Source: Dehalococcoidia bacterium
Lineage (GTDB): Bacteria; Chloroflexota; Dehalococcoidia; Dehalococcoidales; JAUXAP01
NCBI GenBank assembly: GCA_030619865.1
Contig: JAUXAP010000008.1
Coordinates: 1-45,058 of the forward strand
Direction: 5' to 3'
DNA length: 45,058 nt
The translations under genes were made by a program, and so were the position numbers. A model generated the notes under the pieces. It had not been told where the DNA came from, did not search any database, and saw nothing but the letters and a program-made list of their open reading frames with translations. Positions 548-45,058 of this stretch are shown piece after piece (the stretch's first letter is position 1; every line of letters starts with the position of its first letter).

Positions 548-622
<75 letters not shown>

Positions 623-918
623 AACCCCTTAACATAGTACCCCGCCCAAATTCCAAGCTTGCCCTGAGGATAGCCGAAGGGTATAAACTGACAAATACCC
701 AACAATCTTCAATTCTCAAAATCATAGCCGGTAGCTCCTGGTAAGAGGATTGGGTAACCATATTATTTCATTGAATATTAATACAAAGTACTATTCGGAT
801 TGGTACTAAAAACCTACTGCAAAAAAGAGATTTTGATGTGATAATTAAATTGTCATTTATAATACAGCAAATTGTATTGTAGTAACATATTGCAAAAAGA
901 ACGTCACATGAGGAGAAA

Positions 919-1374
919 GTGATGAATATATTGCTGAAAAGGAAAATTTTCGTTATACCACTGATTGTAGTGATGGCAGTTGCGGTAGTTGGCGGTGTTA
1001 TTTATGCTGCTACCGCAATTACGGTACCCGGTCAAGTTAATATAGTGGTAGCAACTAATGATATAGAAGTCTACTCGAATTCTAGATATACTGTTGAACT
1101 TACGGAAATAATCTGGAATGACTTACCTGTTGGAGGAGAGAAGTATAGGATTGTTTATATTAGAAACATCGGGAATACCGATGCTCAAGTGGTAGCGACT
1201 TTACAAGGCGCTCCTGCCGGAGTGACACTTAGAGAAGGTGCAGATACAATAGTAATAAGCAGAAGATCGCAAGCTGAATTTACTTTATATCTAGAAGCTG
1301 CCACAACAGCTAATATTGGGTCTTCTTCGTTTACAGTAACTTTCACTAGTACCCCGATATATGTAAATCCATAA
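919..1374 (+). CDS. Secreted or membrane-anchored protein, probable beta-sandwich, unknown function
   Basis: ORF of 151 aa with GGAG RBS, N-terminal hydrophobic signal/anchor (KRKIFVIPLIVVMAVAVVGGVIYA) and a beta-rich remainder. Confidence 0.7.
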   Translation: MMNILLKRKIFVIPLIVVMAVAVVGGVIYAATAITVPGQVNIVVATNDIEVYSNSRYTVELTEIIWNDLPVGGEKYRIVYIRNIGNTDAQVVATLQGAPAGVTLREGADTIVISRRSQAEFTLYLEAATTANIGSSSFTVTFTSTPIYVNP

Positions 1375-1441
1375 TTGTAAAAATAGTTTGCATATACATT
1401 AGTTAATGCAAAATTGATAAATCAATAACATAAATCTCGCT

Positions 1442-1489
1442 AGGCTCAAAACTCAAAGGTCGTTGGTTCAAATCCAACCCCCGCTACCA
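1442..1489 (+). repeat. Partial tRNA-fMet 3' copy (anticodon arm onward; 32 nt identical to the intact tRNA)
   Basis: ggtcgttggttcaaatccaacccccgctacca (1458-1489) is identical to 591-622, preceded by a decayed anticodon arm ggctcaaaactcaaa. Confidence 0.92.
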
Positions 1490-1521
1490 AGGTTATTGAG
1501 GCTGGTATGTAATTAACCAGC

Positions 1522-1752
1522 CTATTTCTTTCTAGCCCTAACTGAAATTCCTTCCTCTGTATTGGTTAATTCATACGGCCAAATTGAATTAGTGTCAACA
1601 AGTCTTACTCTTATGCTAGTTGTAGGAATCCAAGTCTGGATTGTTGGTATACCTCCAGGTGTTACACTCCATCGAGACCCGTCGTCTAATTCTAATGAAT
1701 CATCTAACACTTCGAGGAGCATGTGCTCTTCTATCTGATTTGGATTATCCAT
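1522..1752 (-). CDS. Small hypothetical protein (76 aa) downstream of the PIN gene
   Basis: ORF 25 bp downstream of the PIN-domain ORF on the same strand; LDDGSRWSVTPGG segment suggests a small beta-domain. Confidence 0.6.
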   Translation of the reverse strand: MDNPNQIEEHMLLEVLDDSLELDDGSRWSVTPGGIPTIQTWIPTTSIRVRLVDTNSIWPYELTNTEEGISVRARKK

Positions 1753-1777
1753 GTTATCCTTCTAGCACTTCAAATTT

Positions 1778-2437
1778 TTACAGTGGCATTTTGCTTGTTA
1801 ATGAAATAAATACTCTGCTTCGTTCATCTTCAGGTATCGTTGGATTATATGCATTCGGTAATTCCTGGATCTTCTTTGATCCGTTACGGAGATTCCTATC
1901 AAGCGTCACAATATGTAGGTATTTCTTAGGAATATCAAAAAAATCAACGACATACTTTGCAGTTGCGAGGACAATTAGATCTGGAAGAGAGACCTCAAGT
2001 CCTTCTTTTAAGAATACCTCATAGAAGCGGTCTACAGAGATTATTATGTCCCGTGATGTTGAGATATCATGATACTTAATTCGTCTACTACGTGATTTTA
2101 AAGTTCGATCCGTTGTGGTAATGTCTTTTATGAGACGTTGCCGAGCATTACGATATTCACTCGGATTCTTAAACCAATTATCAACATAGTATTTCCGTGC
2201 CAATGCCTTGAATGTTTCAGCAATGCAGATATCAGGAATATAAACACGGGCTTTGTTAGACTTAAGTTGCTGCTCAATTTCATCCCACCAACTCAGACAT
2301 TTATCAACTCGTGTTTTATCTTTTGGTTTTTGAACTCGATTGAGCGGAATGTATTTATTAACAAGAAAATTTGCATCAATAACGTAATAGTTCTTATTTC
2401 GTGCTGGATTACGGTATATTTTTCGGATTCTAGCCAT
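1778..2437 (-). CDS. PIN-domain-like protein
   Basis: NYYVIDANFLVNKYIP N-terminus with internal D/E residues (DICIAETFKAL; LPDLIVLATAKYV; IVTLDRNLR) matches the PIN nuclease pattern. Confidence 0.7.
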   Translation of the reverse strand: MARIRKIYRNPARNKNYYVIDANFLVNKYIPLNRVQKPKDKTRVDKCLSWWDEIEQQLKSNKARVYIPDICIAETFKALARKYYVDNWFKNPSEYRNARQRLIKDITTTDRTLKSRSRRIKYHDISTSRDIIISVDRFYEVFLKEGLEVSLPDLIVLATAKYVVDFFDIPKKYLHIVTLDRNLRNGSKKIQELPNAYNPTIPEDERSRVFISLTSKMPL

Positions 2438-2706
2438 ACAAGCATCCTAATTATTGCATATCTTGCATACTAACTTATGTCAATAATACAATATGCACCC
2501 TGTTAATATTATACCATCCGTCCCCGAATCTATACTATAGATATGATTGAGGAGCCTATCCTAGTCTCACCCATCCCTACTACTCCACATCTGCCCTAAC
2601 CTCCCCCCGCCCCCGCGTACGAACCCGCAGCTTCGCGCCACAATACAGGCGGGAGGTGAGCGTAATGAACAAAGAGACCATGCTGCTAGAATGTTCGGCC
2701 GAAAAA

Positions 2707-2728
2707 TTGACAGAAGCACATCTGTCAA
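2707..2728. promoter_or_regulatory. Perfect 8-bp inverted repeat TTGACAGA-N6-TCTGTCAA
   Basis: Read directly, about 80 bp upstream of the aldo/keto reductase start. Function (operator or hairpin) not established. Confidence 0.4.
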
Positions 2729-2805
2729 CTTAGTATGTCAGCGAGTAAGTTGTTCGGGTAGGGCTGAAGTTACCCATTACAATTGGCTGATTAGCCAAAA
2801 AGAAT

Positions 2806-3792
2806 ATGGTTATGCAGTATAAAAAATTGGGAAGAACAGGGCTTAAGGTTTCCGCAATCTGTCTGGGTACTGCGACCTATGGGCATCAAGTGAATGAAAT
2901 AGAAGCTATAAACATAATAAAGAGGGCGTTGGCGGCTGGTATCAACTTCTTTGATACCGCTGATATGTATGCTGAAGGTAAGTGTGAAGAAATTATTGGT
3001 AAGGCGTTTAAAGAGGAGCGCCACTCTGTGGTGCTGGCAACAAAGGTGGGAAATAGGATGGGGCCGGGTGTCAACGATGTCGGGTCATCACGCAAGCATA
3101 TTATGAAGGGTATAGAAGACAGCCTGCGTCGGCTACAAACAGACTACATTGACCTCTATTATATTCACACTCCAGACTACACCACTCCTATGGAGGAGAC
3201 GCTGCGCGCTCTGGATGACTTAGTTCAGCAAGGTAAGGTGCGCTACATAGGCTTGTCTAATTTCCATGCCTGGCAGCTTTGTAAAGCGTTATGGCTGAGT
3301 GACCGTTATAATTTAGCACGGTTTGATTGTATTGAGTCGCCGTATAACTTGCTTACCCGGGACGTTGAGTATGAGCTACTGCCCCTTTGTAGCAGTGAAG
3401 GAGTAGGAATATGTGTATGGGCCCCTCTGGCTGGTGGTCTGCTGACTGGCAAGTATGATCCGAATAAGCCGCCACCCGAAGGCACCAAGTTTACTACTGT
3501 AGGCAATAGGCGATCATACCATGATATCTACTGGTCAGCTGCCAACTTTGAGGCTGTAGCCCGTCTCAAACAGATTGCTGAGGGGCATGGGTGTAGTTTA
3601 GCTCAGTTTGCCCTGGCCTGGATACTGAGTAATCCCACAATTACATCAGCTATCTGTGGCACCACTTCAGTGAAGCAATTAGAGGAGAACCTGGGAGCTA
3701 GTGAGGTGAAATTATCACAGGAAGAACTTGCTGCCTGTGACGAGGTATGGCAGAAGCTCAGTCCTCGGCCTAAATTATTCTACGGAAGGTAA
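2806..3792 (+). CDS. Aldo/keto reductase
   Basis: KLGRTGLKVSAICLGT, FFDTADMYAEG, LATKVGN, DYIDLYYIHTPD and RYIGLSNFHAWQ motifs of the AKR family. Confidence 0.92.
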   Translation: MVMQYKKLGRTGLKVSAICLGTATYGHQVNEIEAINIIKRALAAGINFFDTADMYAEGKCEEIIGKAFKEERHSVVLATKVGNRMGPGVNDVGSSRKHIMKGIEDSLRRLQTDYIDLYYIHTPDYTTPMEETLRALDDLVQQGKVRYIGLSNFHAWQLCKALWLSDRYNLARFDCIESPYNLLTRDVEYELLPLCSSEGVGICVWAPLAGGLLTGKYDPNKPPPEGTKFTTVGNRRSYHDIYWSAANFEAVARLKQIAEGHGCSLAQFALAWILSNPTITSAICGTTSVKQLEENLGASEVKLSQEELAACDEVWQKLSPRPKLFYGR

Positions 3793-3996
3793 GCACCTAT
3801 ATAGCAAACGCTCGGAGCATTTTTATATCTACGCGAGTTCGGAAAAACAAGATTATTGTTATTTTAATTATGGCTGGTTCTTTATTGCCTCATTATTCTA
3901 GAAGAGATGAAAAGAACACCCATAGTTACACTGCAAGTAACAAACCGCTATTTTGTGCAATCGGCTGAAAAGACGGCGAAAGTGCTAGAGAGAAGA

Positions 3997-4452
3997 TTAC
4001 CTCTGCTCCCACAACTGCCGGGTAAGCTGAATATGCCCCAGGTGTACGGCATAATGACTAATATGGTGCAGGATACACCACCTGACAGTGACAGAGCCCA
4101 AGTTGGGTCGGATGACGGTCCTTGTCTCCCCTAGTTGCGAAGAGCTTAGCTTGCTAAGAATCCTCTTACTTGCCCTGAATACTTCCTCCCAGTGCTTTAC
4201 AATCTCTGAAAGGTGTCCTGAAGCGCGGAACTCAGCATCCCGGTCCCGATCTATAGTTTCTCCACCGATGATGTGTCTAACCCAGTAGTTGTCAATACCC
4301 GCCAAATGGCACAGGATGACATATATAGAGTTAGTATCTTTGGGAAGAGGGCGCCAATTGGCCGCTTCATAATTAAGACCTTTAACGGCATCCAGGATTT
4401 GCTCTCTTAAGATAGCAAACTCGGTAAGGTAACCCTGAACTTCAGCTTCCAT
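3997..4452 (-). CDS. DinB-like (DUF664/DinB fold) protein
   Basis: LREQILDAVKGL...NWRP...ICHLAGIDNYWVRHIIGG...HHISHYAVHLGHIQLTRQL pattern. Start chosen at MEAEVQ, which has a GGAGGC RBS. Confidence 0.7.
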   Translation of the reverse strand: MEAEVQGYLTEFAILREQILDAVKGLNYEAANWRPLPKDTNSIYVILCHLAGIDNYWVRHIIGGETIDRDRDAEFRASGHLSEIVKHWEEVFRASKRILSKLSSSQLGETRTVIRPNLGSVTVRWCILHHISHYAVHLGHIQLTRQLWEQR

Positions 4453-4552
4453 AATTCGCCTCCAATAATTTTTTATAATCATATATATCAGGGAGACCTC
4501 CGTCAACAGAAATTAAAAACTAGCAGTCAGGTTACTAAGGGTTCAAGCAATA

Positions 4553-4581
4553 TTGACCAGGGCATACTTTTATGGTATAAG
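4553..4581 (+). promoter_or_regulatory. Putative promoter immediately before the tRNA-like fragment and the VOC array
   Basis: TTGACC (4553-4558), 17 nt spacer, TATAAG (4576-4581). Same geometry and distance as the intact tRNA-fMet promoter. Confidence 0.6.
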
Positions 4582-4584
4582 TTA

Positions 4585-4648
4585 ACGCTGGAGAGGGTTG
4601 GGTCCAGCAACCCGAAGGTCGTTGGTTCAAATCCAATCCCCGCTACCA
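4585..4648 (+). repeat. Rearranged partial tRNA-fMet copy (D-arm lost; T-arm and CCA retained)
   Basis: cgctggagagggttgggtccagcaacccgaaggtcgttggttcaaatccaatccccgctacca. The 3' 35 nt differ from the tRNA mainly by one C-to-T. Confidence 0.88.
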
Positions 4649-4679
4649 ATCTTTATTCTATACAATAATGGAGGTGCAT

Positions 4680-5084
4680 ATGGCTCTGGGAAAGATTGAC
4701 CACATAGATTTCACCGTTGATGACTTAGAAAAGGCAGAGAAACACTTTACTGAAAAGCTGGGATTTAAACTCCTGAGACGTACTGACCATGCCGGAAAAT
4801 CAATCGAACTAACCTCACCAGCCGGTGATTTTTTCCTTGACATTCACCAAATGACAGACGAAATAAGGGATGAATATAAGACTGAGCAGGAAGCATCCAG
4901 ATGGCCTATTTACTTTAATCATATTGCTTTCAAGGTAGATGATATAAATAAGGAATTTGAAGATATGAAGAGTAAAGGAGTGCAATTCAGGCTGGATGCC
5001 CCTGATTTTAACCCAGCAACCGGCAGAACACTCGCTGATACCCCTGACGGCGATGGACGTTTCTGGATTCAATTAACCGACTAA
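4680..5084 (+). CDS. VOC-family protein (paralog 1)
   Basis: MALGKIDHIDFTVDDLEKAEKHFTEKLGF...FNHIAFKV...WIQLTD; RBS GGAGGTGCAT-ATG. Confidence 0.92.
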   Translation: MALGKIDHIDFTVDDLEKAEKHFTEKLGFKLLRRTDHAGKSIELTSPAGDFFLDIHQMTDEIRDEYKTEQEASRWPIYFNHIAFKVDDINKEFEDMKSKGVQFRLDAPDFNPATGRTLADTPDGDGRFWIQLTD

Positions 5085-5100
5085 AAGATTGCCTAGATAA

Positions 5101-5132
5101 GGTCAGGGGGCTGAATCCAAGCCCCACTATCA
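5101..5132 (+). repeat. Degenerate tRNA-fMet 3'-tail copy
   Basis: ggtcagggggctgaatccaagccccactatca aligned to ggtcgttggttcaaatccaacccccgctacca. Confidence 0.6.
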
Positions 5133-5163
5133 AGGATTATTATATTTAATATGGAGGTGTAAC

Positions 5164-5574
5164 ATGGCTTTTGGAAAGATCAATCACTTAGAGTTCCTTG
5201 TCGATGACTTAGAAGAGGCGGTGAAGTACTTTACTGAAAAGCTGGGATTCAAACTGGTGAGACGCTTTGATGTTGGCTGGGGATTTGGTAAAGCAGTCGA
5301 GGTAAAGGCACCCAATGGCACTGAAATCTTCGAACTTCACCAGGTAACCGACGAATTTAAGGAGCAGATTAAGAAGGCACCTGGATGGGTATATTTCAAT
5401 CATATTGCCTTTGAGGTAGAGGATATAGATAAGGAGTATGAAGAACTGACGAGCAAAGGGGTGAAATTTGCCGGTCCTCCACATTTTAATCCAGAAAGTG
5501 GTAGAAACCTCGCTCAGACCCGTGAACCCGACGGACGTGAATGGATTCAATTACAAGAAGCGAAGCCTAAGTAA
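5164..5574 (+). CDS. VOC-family protein (paralog 2)
   Basis: MAFGKINHLEFLVDDLEEAVKYFTEKLGF...FNHIAFEV...WIQLQE. Confidence 0.92.
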   Translation: MAFGKINHLEFLVDDLEEAVKYFTEKLGFKLVRRFDVGWGFGKAVEVKAPNGTEIFELHQVTDEFKEQIKKAPGWVYFNHIAFEVEDIDKEYEELTSKGVKFAGPPHFNPESGRNLAQTREPDGREWIQLQEAKPK

Positions 5575-5590
5575 ATGCATTGAGGCATAA

Positions 5591-5657
5591 CTCCACAGTA
5601 GAAGGTTAAAAGTAAGAGAAACTCCCCCCAAAGTGTAATAAGCACTACCCTGATTCT
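5591..5657 (+). repeat. Intergenic repeat of the VOC array (copy 1)
   Basis: ctccacagtagaaggttaaaagtaagagaaact...aagtgtaataagcactaccctgattctt closely matches 6128-6193. Confidence 0.8.
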
Positions 5658-5680
5658 TATACATGATATGGAGGTGTAAT

Positions 5681-6079
5681 ATGGCTCTGGGAAAGATCAC
5701 CCACTTAGATTTCCTTGCCTACGAGTTAGAGGAAACAGTTAAGTACTTTACTGAAAAGCTAGGATTCAAAGTGGTAAGGCGCACCACGCATGGGGGAGAA
5801 GCAGTCGAGTTAATCTCACCCGACGGTGATGAGATCTTCGAATTTCACCCACCAACCAAGGAGATAATTAAAGCCACCAATGAGCGCCGTGGAAGTCTAT
5901 TTCTCAGGCATATCGCCTTTGAGGTGGATGATGTAGATGAGGCGTATAAAGAACTGAAAAGCAAAGGGGTGGAATTTTCCGATGCCCCTCTTTTTACTCC
6001 AAAAACCAACCGGAAACTGGCTATGGCTTATGATGCCCATGGGCGTAGATTCATCCAATTAGAAGAAAAGAAAAAGTAG
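5681..6079 (+). CDS. VOC-family protein (paralog 3)
   Basis: MALGKITHLDFLAYELEETVKYFTEKLGF...LRHIAFEV...FIQLEE; RBS GGAGGTGTAAT-ATG. Confidence 0.92.
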   Translation: MALGKITHLDFLAYELEETVKYFTEKLGFKVVRRTTHGGEAVELISPDGDEIFEFHPPTKEIIKATNERRGSLFLRHIAFEVDDVDEAYKELKSKGVEFSDAPLFTPKTNRKLAMAYDAHGRRFIQLEEKKK

Positions 6080-6127
6080 CCGACATAGAGGCATTAAGGT
6101 ATAAAATTTACTCAGGAAAGCTAATAG

Positions 6128-6193
6128 CTCCATAGTAGAAGATTAAAAGTAAGAGAAACTGCCCCAAAGTGCAATAAGCACTACCCTGATTAT
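6128..6193 (+). repeat. Intergenic repeat of the VOC array (copy 2)
   Basis: ctccatagtagaagattaaaagtaagagaaactgccccaaagtgcaataagcactaccctgatta; see 5591-5657. Confidence 0.8.
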
Positions 6194-6218
6194 TATAATA
6201 TGATAATGGAGGTATGAT

Positions 6219-6620
6219 ATGGCTCTAGGAAGAATCAATCACGTAGATTTGCTTGTCGACGACTTAAAAAAGACAGAGGAGTACTTTACCAAAAAGCTGG
6301 GATTTAAAGTGGTGAGACGTACTCAGCATACGTCATACGGAGGTGAGCATATTGAGGTAGTCTCACCCGATGGGGGTGAAATCCTTGACATTCACCAAAT
6401 ACAGGAGACATATCTAAAAGAGGATGCACCTACAAGGCCACATGTTCATCATATCGCCTTTGAGGTGGATGATTTAGACAAAACTTATGAAGAGCTGAAA
6501 AGTAAAGGGGTAGAATTTAAAGATGCGCCAAGGTTTGTTCCGCAAACTGGCAGGAAACTCGCCTTCATGAAAGATGCCGATGGGCGCCCGTGGATTCAAT
6601 TGCAAGAAAAGGAGAAATAA
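6219..6620 (+). CDS. VOC-family protein (paralog 4)
   Basis: MALGRINHVDLLVDDLKKTEEYFTKKLGF...VHHIAFEV...WIQLQE. Confidence 0.92.
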   Translation: MALGRINHVDLLVDDLKKTEEYFTKKLGFKVVRRTQHTSYGGEHIEVVSPDGGEILDIHQIQETYLKEDAPTRPHVHHIAFEVDDLDKTYEELKSKGVEFKDAPRFVPQTGRKLAFMKDADGRPWIQLQEKEK

Positions 6621-6667
6621 CCAGCATAGACGCGTTAAATAAACTATGAAAATAATGGAGGTGTAAT

Positions 6668-7066
6668 ATGGCCCTGGGAAAGATTGACCACATAGATTTA
6701 TTTGTTGACGACTTAGAAAAGGCAGAAAAGCACTTCACCGAAAAACTGGGCTTCAAGCTCCTGAGACACACCGAGCATGTGGGAAAATCAATCGAACTAG
6801 CCTCACCGGCCGGTGATTTTTTCCTTGACCTCCACCAAGGAAGCGAGGAGCTATATAAGACCGAGAGGGAGAAATCACCCGGGTGGCCCTATTATTTTAA
6901 TCATATCGCCTTTAAGGTGGAAAATATAAACAAGGAATTTGAAGATATGAAGAGTAAAGGGGTGTCATTCAGGCTGGATGCTCCTAATTTTAACCCAACA
7001 ACTGGCAGAACACTCGCTAACGCCCCTGATGCCGATGGACGTTTTTGGATTCAACTGACCGACTAA
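6668..7066 (+). CDS. VOC-family protein (paralog 5; closest to paralog 1)
   Basis: MALGKIDHIDLFVDDLEKAEKHFTEKLGFKLL...FNHIAFKVENINKEFEDMKSKGV...RFWIQLTD. Confidence 0.92.
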   Translation: MALGKIDHIDLFVDDLEKAEKHFTEKLGFKLLRHTEHVGKSIELASPAGDFFLDLHQGSEELYKTEREKSPGWPYYFNHIAFKVENINKEFEDMKSKGVSFRLDAPNFNPTTGRTLANAPDADGRFWIQLTD

Positions 7067-7090
7067 AAAGTAGCCGATATAGGTCAGAAG

Positions 7091-7158
7091 GGAGGTGCGC
7101 TATGGCTTCGGGGGCTCATAACCCGAAGCGCGAGGAACAAACCTAACCCCTGCTACTA
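7091..7158 (+). repeat. Chimeric scar: VOC-type RBS/start fused to a tRNA-fMet fragment (anticodon arm to 3' end)
   Basis: ggaggtgcgctATGGCT is followed by tcgggggctcataacccgaagcgcgaggaacaaacctaacccctgctacta, with the intact anticodon loop CTCATAA. Confidence 0.8.
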
Positions 7159-7185
7159 AGATTACTTATAATACGGAGGTATAAT

Positions 7186-7590
7186 ATGGCTCTGAAAAGA
7201 ATTCATCACATAGATATTTTTGTTGACAACATAGAAAAGGTATCTGACCACTTTATAGACAAGCTGGGATTTAAACCGGTTAAAAAATCGGTGCATGTGG
7301 GAAAATCAATAGAACTAGCTATACCCGCTGGTGAGGAAGTGCGCTTTGAATTTCACGAAATGACCGAAGAATACAGGAAGACACACCAGAAGGAGATGGC
7401 TTACGGGAAGCCAGATATTGACCACATCGGTTTTGAGGTGGACGATATAAATAAGGAATTTGAAGAGCTGAAAAGTAAAGGGGTTGAATTTAAAAGCACG
7501 CCACAGGTGAATCCCCTTGGCCGGAAACTGTGTCGTACTGTTGATGCCGATGGGCGTGGCTGGCTTCAATTGTACGAAGAGGGAAAATAA
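7186..7590 (+). CDS. VOC-family protein (paralog 6)
   Basis: MALKRIHHIDIFVDNIEKVSDHFIDKLGF...IDHIGFEV...WLQLYE. Confidence 0.92.
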   Translation: MALKRIHHIDIFVDNIEKVSDHFIDKLGFKPVKKSVHVGKSIELAIPAGEEVRFEFHEMTEEYRKTHQKEMAYGKPDIDHIGFEVDDINKEFEELKSKGVEFKSTPQVNPLGRKLCRTVDADGRGWLQLYEEGK

Positions 7591-7669
7591 CCTGTATAGA
7601 TGCAGTAAGCGGTGAAAACCACAATGTATAAGCACTACCAAGATTATTATAAATATATGGAGGTGTAAT

Positions 7670-8074
7670 ATGGCTCTAGGAAAAATCAATCACATAGAAT
7701 TCTTTGTCGACGACTTAGAAAAGGCAGAAGAATATTTCACCAAAAAGCTGGGCTTTAAAGTAGTGAGACGCACTGAGCACGCAGGCAAAGCAATCGAGCT
7801 AGTGGCACCCGCCGGTGAGGGGATAATCTTTGAACTTCACCCGAGGAAAGTAGGAGCGCAACGGAAGGACAAGGACCCACTGGGATGGCCAGCCTTTAAT
7901 CATGTCGCCTTTGAGGTGGACGATATAAATAAAGAGTTTGAAGAGCTGAAAAGTAAAGGGGTTAAATTCATGCAAGATGCACCAAGTTTTAATCCACTTA
8001 CTGGCAGGACACTGGCTGATACTTATGATGCCGATGGGCGTATGTGGATCCAATTGCAAGACAAAGAAAAGTAG
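7670..8074 (+). CDS. VOC-family protein (paralog 7)
   Basis: MALGKINHIEFFVDDLEKAEEYFTKKLGF...FNHVAFEV...WIQLQD. Confidence 0.92.
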   Translation: MALGKINHIEFFVDDLEKAEEYFTKKLGFKVVRRTEHAGKAIELVAPAGEGIIFELHPRKVGAQRKDKDPLGWPAFNHVAFEVDDINKEFEELKSKGVKFMQDAPSFNPLTGRTLADTYDADGRMWIQLQDKEK

Positions 8075-8075
8075 C

Positions 8076-8105
8076 TTGACAAAGCTGATAACCCTGTAGT
8101 ATAAG
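8076..8105 (+). promoter_or_regulatory. Putative internal promoter before VOC paralog 8
   Basis: TTGACA (8076-8081), 18 nt spacer, TATAAG (8100-8105). Confidence 0.5.
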
Positions 8106-8154
8106 GTAAAAACTCAGAACAAAACTATTTATTTTTATAATAAGGAGGTATGTT

Positions 8155-8571
8155 ATGGCTCTGGGAAAGATTAACCACTTTCATTTCTATGTTGAGGACT
8201 TAGAAGAGACGTACAAATACTTCACTGAGAAGTTGGGGTTCGAGTTTGTACGGCGAGGGCACGGGGGAAAGTCAATCGACTTAGTCTCATCCGAGGGTGG
8301 TCCAACCTTTGAATTTAACCAGATAACTGAGGAATACAAGACTGCCAAACCCGAGGATAATCCTGACGTTGCTCACATCGCAGCCAAGAGAAGGCCGTAT
8401 CTTGACCATATTGCCTTTGAGGTTGATAACGTAGAAGAAAAGGTCAAAGAATTGAAAAGTAAGAGCGTAGAGTTTCTATCAGGGCCTGTTCTGAACCCGC
8501 AAAATAATCGCATGCTGGCTGACCTCTATGACCTTGAGGGGCATGCGTGGATTCAATTGCAAGAAAAGTAA
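8155..8571 (+). CDS. VOC-family protein (paralog 8, most divergent)
   Basis: MALGKINHFHFYVEDLEETYKYFTEKLGF...LDHIAFEV...WIQLQEK. Confidence 0.9.
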   Translation: MALGKINHFHFYVEDLEETYKYFTEKLGFEFVRRGHGGKSIDLVSSEGGPTFEFNQITEEYKTAKPEDNPDVAHIAAKRRPYLDHIAFEVDNVEEKVKELKSKSVEFLSGPVLNPQNNRMLADLYDLEGHAWIQLQEK

Positions 8572-8589
8572 CCAAGAGGAATCCTGACA

Positions 8590-8621
8590 GGTCGTCCCTT
8601 CGAATCCAACCCCCGCTACCA
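8590..8621 (+). repeat. tRNA-fMet 3'-tail copy closing the VOC array
   Basis: ggtcgtcccttcgaatccaacccccgctacca; the last 18 nt equal the tRNA 3' end. Confidence 0.9.
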
Positions 8622-8633
8622 ATGAGCATAATG

Positions 8634-8665
8634 AGGACTAGGTAATTATAAACCTAGTCCTTTTT
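8634..8665 (+). terminator. Rho-independent terminator after the VOC array
   Basis: AGGACTAGGT-N8-ACCTAGTCCT followed by TTTTT; perfect 10-bp stem. Confidence 0.85.
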
Positions 8666-42792: not shown

Positions 42793-43308
42793 TCAATCTA
42801 TGTTTTCTTTCTGATAAGCCCCATGGTAGCCTTCCGTCTCTTGGGTTAACTGTAAGAAAATAAGCTGTACAATCCTGGCATTCTTTTGCAAGCGAAACCC
42901 CTGAGAATTATAGACCACCATAAGGGACTGGGAACGACCAGAATAGCCAGCATCCCATGCTGCAGTGTTCACCGTAACGCCACAGCGAAGCAGGCTCGAC
43001 CTGGGCCTGGCCAACGCCATAACATTCTTGGGCAAATGGACAATCTCATTATAGGTAATAATGTAGGCACCAGGCACCAGGTCAATAAAGCCCAGTCCAT
43101 CAAATACCAACGGGGCTAAATCAGATACAACCCTCTGGCTGTTTTTAACGGCTATCTTGCCCGGTGACTGAAGCAGTGCCACCTCACGCAGGGTGAGGTC
43201 GATGCCGTTAGGCTGCACCTGCTCCTCAAGGTCAATATAGCCTTCTATCAGTGGTGGCTTTTGCTGTATTAACTTACCGATATCTTGCTGGGATAAAATA
43301 GCTGCCAT
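42793..43308 (-). CDS. dcd: dCTP deaminase/dUTPase family
   Basis: VQPNGIDLTLREVALL; VHLPKNVMALARPRSSLLRCGVTVNTAAWDAGYSGRSQSLMVV. Start inferred at MAAILSQQDIG. Confidence 0.88.
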   Translation of the reverse strand: MAAILSQQDIGKLIQQKPPLIEGYIDLEEQVQPNGIDLTLREVALLQSPGKIAVKNSQRVVSDLAPLVFDGLGFIDLVPGAYIITYNEIVHLPKNVMALARPRSSLLRCGVTVNTAAWDAGYSGRSQSLMVVYNSQGFRLQKNARIVQLIFLQLTQETEGYHGAYQKENID

Positions 43309-43330
43309 TTCTAAGGTCTCTATAGTAGCA

Positions 43331-43374
43331 CAGGACAGCAAAAGTTTGAAGTTCTACAAGGCACCACTGTCCTA
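43331..43374. repeat. Repeat A, copy 1 (3' side of the DUF4145-like gene)
   Basis: caggacagcaaaagtttgaagttctacaaggcaccactgtccta; compare 44241-44278. Confidence 0.7.
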
Positions 43375-44082
43375 AGAGCCTTTCTTCTTAGTCGCTTCTT
43401 TTTCTGCAGCTATTTTTTTTATTGCTTGGAGATGTGTTTCCCTCTCATACCGTGCAATATACCAGTCTCTTAAAAGAATCTCTACTAGCCCTACTAACAA
43501 ATCCGCCTCTTTAGGTTCAATATTTATTATTAGATTTACATCTTGTTCCATGTGCTTGCCAACATTGCCAACGCTGCGCACAGACTCTATAGCATCCCAG
43601 GTTTTTGGGTCAACTTTGTCTTTTATCTTCTGAATTTCATCTGATAGACGCCCTGACTTTACCTTTACTTTCCAGAAATCACGGGTAATTCCTTGTAAGC
43701 ATCTCCTCGCTAAAATAGCAGCTGCCTTGGGACTCTTTTCTAAAATAAGACAAGCTTCGTTATAATCATCTCTTATTGCTTTAGGTATGTAGCTAGGGAA
43801 AGGTATCGCTTTGGACTCAGGTATTAATGACCAACTCTTAAGTAATCTGTTTTTAGATAGTAGACCACTATGTTCATCACTCACATATGCTGAATACATC
43901 TCAACATCAAAGCTTACTTTTCTACATTCAGGATTCGGGCAGACGATAAACCTTGATTGTGCTATCCTTAGCCCATCTTTGTTTACACTGCCCAATTGGG
44001 TTTCTTCAGAAGATACATCTGTCTCAGTGTTTACCGTCACTGGTCTTTGACAAAATGGACATGTCCAACTAAATGCCGTCAC
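43372..44082 (-). CDS. DUF4145-like protein with N-terminal zinc-binding motif
   Basis: CPFCQRPVTV; CPNPECRKVSF; YNEACLILEKSPKAAAILARRCLQGITRDF; SVRSVGNVGKH. Confidence 0.85.
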   Translation of the reverse strand: MTAFSWTCPFCQRPVTVNTETDVSSEETQLGSVNKDGLRIAQSRFIVCPNPECRKVSFDVEMYSAYVSDEHSGLLSKNRLLKSWSLIPESKAIPFPSYIPKAIRDDYNEACLILEKSPKAAAILARRCLQGITRDFWKVKVKSGRLSDEIQKIKDKVDPKTWDAIESVRSVGNVGKHMEQDVNLIINIEPKEADLLVGLVEILLRDWYIARYERETHLQAIKKIAAEKEATKKKGS

Positions 44083-44111
44083 TTTAATTCTCCAGCTGCT
44101 CTATCCATTGA

Positions 44112-44140
44112 AATGTAGACTATTTGCCAGGTGGTGTCAA
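44112..44140 (-). promoter_or_regulatory. Putative promoter of the DUF4145-like gene
   Basis: Minus strand TTGACA (44140-44135), 17 nt, TACATT (44117-44112). Confidence 0.6.
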
Positions 44141-44177
44141 GTACCCCTATGAACCCCATCGGAGCGAATCACGTGAT
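44136..44177. repeat. Repeat B, copy 1 (5' side of the DUF4145-like gene)
   Basis: gtcaagtacccctatgaaccccatcggagcgaatcacgtgat; compare 44685-44729. Confidence 0.75.
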
Positions 44178-44240
44178 AGGTATGTCGGTCTATGGTTGAA
44201 ATGCAAAAAGGGCAGCAGATATACAAGGTCAGTTAGTTTT

Positions 44241-44278
44241 CAGGATAGCTTGAAGTTTTATAAGGCACCGTTGTCTTA
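44241..44278. repeat. Repeat A, copy 2 (3' side of the GYD-like gene)
   Basis: caggatagcttgaagttttataaggcaccgttgtctta; compare 43331-43374. Confidence 0.7.
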
Positions 44279-44315
44279 AAATGCATCGCTTAGTTGTAGT
44301 TGATATCATTAGGAT

Positions 44316-44618
44316 TCAGCCTTTGAACGCTTTGGTAATCTCTGAAAACTGCTCCATTGGGATTAGCGTCCAAGACTCGGTTGTTCCACTCCATTTTGTC
44401 GCGAAGGATAGAGACATAGTTGCGGCGGCTCTCTCATCAGGAGCCTCGTATAGCAACATCAGGTCGTAGGGTCCTAACGTAGCGTAAGAACCAATCGGCT
44501 TGACTCCCATTTTCCGTGCCGATAAAGTTTCTTCGGCAACAGCTCTCTGCATGTGATTAATGTGTTTTATCCCTTGAGGAGTAAATTTTACTAGCGTTAC
44601 ATATGTCTTCATCAACAC
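44316..44618 (-). CDS. GYD-domain-like protein
   Basis: MKTYVTLVKFTPQGIKHI...MGVKPIGSYATLGPYDLMLLYEAPDERAAATMSLSFA. Confidence 0.85.
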   Translation of the reverse strand: MLMKTYVTLVKFTPQGIKHINHMQRAVAEETLSARKMGVKPIGSYATLGPYDLMLLYEAPDERAAATMSLSFATKWSGTTESWTLIPMEQFSEITKAFKG

Positions 44619-44660
44619 GCCACCTTCCTTTTCTCTTTTATTTGTTATGGTTAAGGCTTT

Positions 44661-44689
44661 AGTTTAGTTAACTCTTGAGGGTTTGTCAA
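44661..44689 (-). promoter_or_regulatory. Putative promoter of the GYD-like gene
   Basis: Minus strand TTGACA (44689-44684), 17 nt, TAAACT (44666-44661). Confidence 0.6.
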
Positions 44690-44729
44690 TTACCCCCACG
44701 AACCCCATTAGGGCAGATAGAGAATGATA
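44685..44729. repeat. Repeat B, copy 2 (5' side of the GYD-like gene)
   Basis: gtcaattacccccacgaaccccattagggcagatagagaatgata; compare 44136-44177. Confidence 0.75.
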
Positions 44730-44756
44730 TAATTCAGCGTGTTTTGGAAATAAAAG

Positions 44757-44784
44757 TGGCAGCGGAGGGATTTGAACCCATGCC
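44757..44784 (-). repeat. tRNA 3'-end fragment (parent tRNA unassigned)
   Basis: Reverse complement GGCATGGGTTCAAATCCCTCCGCTGCCA: T-loop GGTTCAAATCC and 3' CCA, but no upstream cloverleaf. Confidence 0.7.
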
Positions 44785-44892
44785 CAAAGGCCTGAACGTT
44801 CTTTCCGCCCATTACAATGAAGGATATAGCTAGCACTAAGGCCAGTAAGGAGTTAACCTAATGTAGCTCTGGCTTACCTCATCGTCTAACTG

Positions 44893-45058
44893 TCAAAACA
44901 AGACAGGCAGTTCTTTACGAAGTTCCCCTAATTGCCTAATTTTCCGTGCGGTTTCTTTAGTTATCTCTTGTCGCTTTTGGAACAAATCCTTGGCATTAAC
45001 AAACACACTTTGCACTCTAGGTACTTTGGTTAACTCGGAAGCAATTAAGGTCACTGAG
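44893..45058 (-). CDS. C-terminal part of an unidentified protein (runs off the right edge)
   Basis: Minus-strand open frame ...LIASELTKVPRVQSVFVNAKDLFQKRQEITKETARKIRQLGELRKELPVLF-stop. Confidence 0.5.
   Translation of the reverse strand, partial: SVTLIASELTKVPRVQSVFVNAKDLFQKRQEITKETARKIRQLGELRKELPVLF

Follow-up and report, generated by a model that had tools for sequence, protein, structure and literature searches.

The right-hand edge of the window (the whole 45,058 nt stretch of DNA that was analysed) carries two unrelated single genes in the order repeat A, gene, repeat B, repeat A, gene, repeat B, followed by the 3' tail of a tRNA-Met gene. On the + strand, repeat A corresponds to the closing stretch of a gene for a tyrosine recombinase, a Xer-like integrase. 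On balance, we think that arrangements of this kind are integron-like cassette arrays in which the joint is the integrase gene's own tail, and we lean to a similar degree towards the window holding the last part of an array of two cassettes that lacks an integrase and lies between tRNA-Met and the dCTP deaminase gene. Copies of the integrase gene 3' end are called scars below, and the features are as follows.

42793-43341, - strand: dCTP deaminase-like gene (DCD; PF22769, E 8e-26), the chromosomal flank of the array, with its likely start at the ATG near 43310
43331-43375, + strand: repeat A1, an integrase 3'-end scar that reads QDSKSLKFYKAPLS-stop
43372-44082, - strand: cargo gene 1, encoding a DUF4145 protein of 236 aa (PF13643, E 1e-10)
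44135-44178, - strand: B1, promoter-like block of cargo gene 1 (TTGACA, 17 bp, TACATT)
44184-44279, + strand: scar made up of the last ~31 integrase codons and including repeat A2 (itself 44241-44279), ending ...RYTRSVSFQDSLKFYKAPLS-stop
44316-44618, - strand: cargo gene 2, encoding a GYD-domain protein of 100 aa (PF08734, E 4e-19)
44684-44729, - strand: B2, promoter-like block of cargo gene 2 (TTGACA, 17 bp, TAAACT)
44740-44784, - strand: displaced tRNA-Met 3' tail, exact over 44757-44779
44785-45058, - strand: end of a further unit with a frame ending ...KELPVLF-stop, read from the sequence and cut by the contig end

The order of repeats and genes and the terminal tRNA tail, first described in the initial annotation, were borne out. 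Within the 45 kb, the repeats pair by BLAST (E-values of 2.6e-4 for A and 2e-3 for B, the B pair at 44135-44159 and 44684-44708 being 88 % identical over 25 nt). The two scars are 905 bp apart with one gene between them, and cargo gene 1 is convergent to the scar with its stop codon overlapping A1; only one weak match to a DUF4145 relative was found in the order. In the genome from which the window comes, a draft of 823 kb that is 58 % complete, the A core and the B core each occur exactly twice, all in this array, and a reversed-control search of the same genome gave 0 matches. No intact integrase of the scar family was found in this 58 % complete draft.

The identity of A was established from several comparisons. 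The scar at 44184-44279 matches an integrase profile (E 2.4e-6, model positions 290-319) and is also found by tblastn (E 1.6e-7), and in a relative (G022) one A copy forms the 3' end of a tyrosine-recombinase gene whose C-terminus is the same as that given by translation of the A copies in the window. Hence, A and B, which had been taken for generic fixed flanks, are an integrase-gene 3' end and a promoter-like block, respectively, and the short sequence gggcagcagata at 44208-44219, previously read as a second tRNA remnant, is integrase coding sequence within scar A2. A terminator or hairpin role for A was rejected, as the repeat is coding and shows no excess folding (mean z-scores of -0.12 and -0.09 on the two strands at 81 scar sites). 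The integrases belong to the tyrosine type (Pfam Phage_integrase) and resemble phage integrase families. Their best models are XerA/XerC-like, with scores that are likewise below the cut-offs of those models, and when three of them were tested with the IntI model TIGR02249 they scored 56.6, 23.0 and 51.2 bits against a cut-off of 265.

The tRNA tail beyond the second B was also confirmed. Positions 44757-44779 on the - strand are an exact 23-nt match to the elongator tRNA-Met gene on another contig of the same genome (G000 contig C7:1870-1942), and by eye 38/40 nt agree from GCCTTTGG to CCACTTTT. On contig C7 (L041, 1-1942) the intact tRNA-Met lies near the contig end and is followed by an FtsZ/tubulin-like gene that runs off the contig, and C7 may adjoin the window on its right. 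A likeness between the tRNA anticodon loop and the tail core (TATAAG) is suggestive for tRNA-Met, but this candidate was set aside because there is no covariation with the tRNA used. Duplicated tRNA 3' parts at an element end are from tRNA-Met in the window and from tRNA-Asn, tRNA-SeC and others in relatives. Elsewhere in the window (548-8640), an intact tRNA-fMet gene precedes a series of copies of its 3' tail, at least three of them clear and several degenerate (at ~1441, 4600, 7110 and 8590). Among these copies lie a PIN-like gene, a DinB-like gene and eight VOC/glyoxalase genes in a row. The parallel drawn earlier between this locus and the array holds only in part: what is repeated here is the tRNA tail, and no scar was found in a search of 548-8640.

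Beyond the single array in its own genome, the A pattern gave 33 matches in 22 of the 156 genomes of the order, with 0 matches in controls. Among named genomes, 24 of the 26 exact matches of the degenerate A pattern were in Dehalococcoidia/Chloroflexi. The other two are in metagenome-assembled genomes of Planctomycetota (L097) and Methanothrix (L113), and either reflect the approximately two matches expected by chance or lie on mis-binned contigs. A viral origin was considered and dropped, as the degenerate pattern had 0 matches in viral contigs. Searches with the A pattern are biased toward copies with an intact core; an independent search with the last 63 integrase residues found, besides full-length genes, some 40 orphan C-terminal fragments, which extend to the stop and in most cases start 28-41 residues into the query. 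The left limits of the scars, counted in nt before the stop, form clusters at ~-93 (the LGRWE codons) and at -42, the latter inflated by scars that were found via the A pattern, and longer remnants are few; the spread of the left limits as a whole, from -30 to -288, was counted against our preferred explanation.

Some 65 scars lie next to single genes that are unrelated to one another, and tandem arrangements are frequent. Tandem scars with one gene between them are seen in the window and in five relatives, at spacings of 540 and 532 bp (G022), 767 bp (G062), 443 bp (G015), 290 bp (G014) and 646 bp (G143), and a longer array in G056 starts at tRNA-SeC. In the relatives, diverse single-gene cassettes in one orientation lie beside an integrase, whereas the window retains no integrase. 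The minimal unit, in G118, consists of a scar, a GYD gene and a promoter-like site flanked by the intact tRNA-SeC and a ~57-nt tRNA copy in which no mismatch was seen. Of 12 scar-bounded cassettes with a clear call, 11 have their cargo convergent to the integrase; an automatic count gave 9:4, because it truncated the DUF4145 frame at the scar, left out one G022 cassette and counted two ORFs without ribosome sites. Most of this material is metagenome-assembled, but scars are also present in four single-contig genomes (G062, G017, G026 and G084) and are therefore unlikely to be an assembly artefact.

Only scars are present in the window, whereas an intact integrase beside its attachment site is found in G050, G014, G022 and others. 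The 5' end of these intact genes abuts a tRNA half cut at the anticodon, from tRNA-Met (G014, G050), tRNA-Asn (G022), tRNA-Lys (G025) or tRNA-Gln (G062), and elsewhere intact integrases adjoin halves of tRNA-SeC, tRNA-Glu and tRNA-Arg. In three loci (L056, L250 and L247) the integrase frame stays open through the adjoining tRNA half. In G050, the same dCTP deaminase gene is followed by a tRNA-Met tail and an intact integrase; at this position the window retains only A1 and is ~950 nt shorter. In G049, tRNA-Met directly precedes the deaminase gene, and this is the unoccupied site. Across the order, the interval between tRNA-Met and the dCTP deaminase gene is variable (L161, L163, L167, L168, L182, L184 and L185), being empty or holding rhomboid, DegV, methyltransferase-like or flavodoxin-like genes.

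These loci also suit another history, which we regard as a serious though less probable alternative, namely that small elements made up of a tRNA half, an integrase and one convergent gene inserted serially and in tandem at tRNA genes and then decayed. The integrases would have been deleted, with the 3' end surviving only by adjoining the 3' end of the cargo, and the scars would be functionless. Intact integrases with a tRNA half on one side and cargo on the other do occur, compared with G050 the window has lost the tail and integrase, and partly deleted integrases exist, ordinary deletion being visible in the eroding genes at L039, L152 and L227, which decay explains. The ssrA islands of Dehalococcoides likewise stack in tandem, many of them without an integration module (PMC3146451). 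However, remnants of intermediate length are scarce, and the behaviour of the scars in different genomes is not that of local relics. A cold-shock-protein gene with its upstream region and scar has an identical junction in genomes of four families (G066, G056, G028 and G027), with right-hand neighbours that differ in all four and left-hand neighbours that differ in the three with enough sequence, and the left edge of this unit is the end of another scar. Similarly, a gene for a 164-aa protein has the same scar junction in G062 and G153 but different neighbours. Flanks also reassort inside the scar: in G022, copy r9 combines the left flank of r8 with the right flank of r6, and in G015, r12 combines the left flank of r13 with the right flank of r45, both switches being located in the final ~45 nt of the integrase gene. 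As gene-plus-scar units recur at unrelated loci and their flanks reassort within the scar, the scar travels with the cassette. The earlier proposal that unrelated genes in one repeat frame reflect insertion or exchange of cargo thus gains support from these units and from the tandem cassettes.

One exact crossover nucleotide was sought and not found, the exchanges being spread over an interval of ~45 nt, and this too was counted against the cassette reading. Across genomes, left blocks that are shared end between -28 and +15, and shared right blocks start between -41 and -70. The residues that follow KAP match the cassette on the right (LTESG in r6 and LTGSR in r9 of G022), consistent with exchange at the integrase 3' end. 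Cassettes might instead be shuffled by ordinary homologous recombination, without a site-specific step, and the repeated integrase 3' ends would give it some material to work on, since several copies per genome at 75-95 % identity provide short homology. We nevertheless consider it improbable, because the homology extends over only ~45-95 nt, which is short for efficient homologous recombination, and because one orientation dominates among the clearly called cassettes.

In the cassette reading, then, the mobile unit would be one gene with its own promoter-like block and a 45-95 bp copy of the integrase-gene 3' end. A Xer-like tyrosine-recombinase gene would found the island by entering at the anticodon arm of a tRNA gene, which would account for the tRNA tails, and the last ~45 bp of this gene would then be where cassettes are joined and exchanged. 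With a tail copy on every cassette, an insertion immediately beyond the integrase gene would keep its frame intact and the integrase complete, much as tRNA-targeting elements restore the tRNA. Reassortment may be catalysed by the integrase itself, and may involve circular intermediates. In G005 and G118 (L145:2230-2310 and L149:6109-6210), the 3' tail of one integrase lies only a few bases beyond a complete gene for another.

Block B is best read as a putative promoter-like block shared by cargo genes, and may act as a promoter. On the - strand it reads ATGGGGTTCGTGGGGGTAC-TTGACA, located 17 bp before TAnAnT in five of eight copies, and in B1 the hexamers are preceded by the conserved ATGGGGTTC..GGGGTA. 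Derivation of B from a tRNA T-arm was rejected, as the stem is unpaired. B recurs in G124, G093, G111, G118 and G038, often beside scars, but promoter-like hexamers beside scars in general (24/61) are not significantly more frequent than in controls (17-19/61). In G093 (L257, ~585) an exact B block lies upstream of a gene for a 169-aa protein with no scar seen nearby, and B may be the promoter of a wider regulon. Despite the promoter-like hexamers of B, it is scarcely credible that A and B are no more than commonplace terminators or promoters that are dispersed and stand here in this order by coincidence, given that each core occurs only twice in its own genome and that A is coding, belongs to a known family, is found order-wide with no control matches and lacks excess folding.

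As in tRNA-targeted integrative elements and genomic islands with tyrosine integrases, the tRNA gene stays intact while a second copy of its 3' part forms a tail at the opposite end, the integrase adjoins a tRNA half and the unoccupied site is found in a relative (G049). Here, however, each unit comprises a single gene within a few hundred bp and usually lacks an integrase, and the integrase-gene tail is repeated at every cassette border. In archaea, partitioned integrases of the SSV type have an attachment site close to the 5' part of int, where it splits the gene. Integrase fragments there mark past insertions at tRNA genes, as they do here, but the recurrent fragment in our arrays is the extreme 3' end and it travels with cargo genes. 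The ssrA islands of Dehalococcoides (McMurdie et al. 2011) involve the serine recombinase DsiB, ssrA and 20-bp repeats and contain many genes (PMC3146451). They occur in the same class, in tandem beside an RNA gene and include islands without an integration module (PMC3146451), but are larger, whereas the scar-system recombinase is of the Phage_integrase tyrosine type and its sites are tRNA halves. Our literature search for cassettes of the present kind found no match, though absence there is no proof of novelty.

Integrons, with their IntI integrase, attI and attC, are the well-known system for stockpiling single-gene cassettes, which are usually promoterless and driven by a common promoter. 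In the scar system, the B blocks hint at promoters belonging to the cargo genes themselves, although the hexamers are not enriched overall. Like the scar system, integrons comprise arrays of different single-gene cassettes that share one orientation beside a tyrosine recombinase, and each cassette has a short sequence resembling a recombination site. In Treponema-type integrons, intI is transcribed toward attI, and insertion is likewise on the 3' side of the integrase gene (PMC3607928). The differences are that the scar-system integrase is not IntI (56.6 bits against 265 for TIGR02249), that its site consists of coding sequence at the 3' end of the integrase gene and shows no excess hairpin folding of the attC kind, and that this site lies at the promoter end of the cassette gene, with cargo convergent to the integrase. 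What is present in these related Dehalococcoidia thus looks like a gene-collecting system that resembles the integron but has a different enzyme and junction sequence. It is possible, and we suggest this tentatively, that it is a second, independent bacterial gene-cassette system in which a Xer-like integrase uses its own gene end as the insertion site; the spare tail on every cassette would re-complete the integrase at each insertion and serve as the cassette tag with no attC hairpin. If so, arrays that occur across the order and rely on another integrase, with the site in that integrase gene's own tail, would mean that cassette collecting has evolved more than once, orphan integrase tails would provide a signature with which to search for such systems elsewhere, and the small accessory genes (GYD, ABM, SnoaL, cold-shock, DUF4145) beside tRNA genes in uncultured Dehalococcoidia would be explained.
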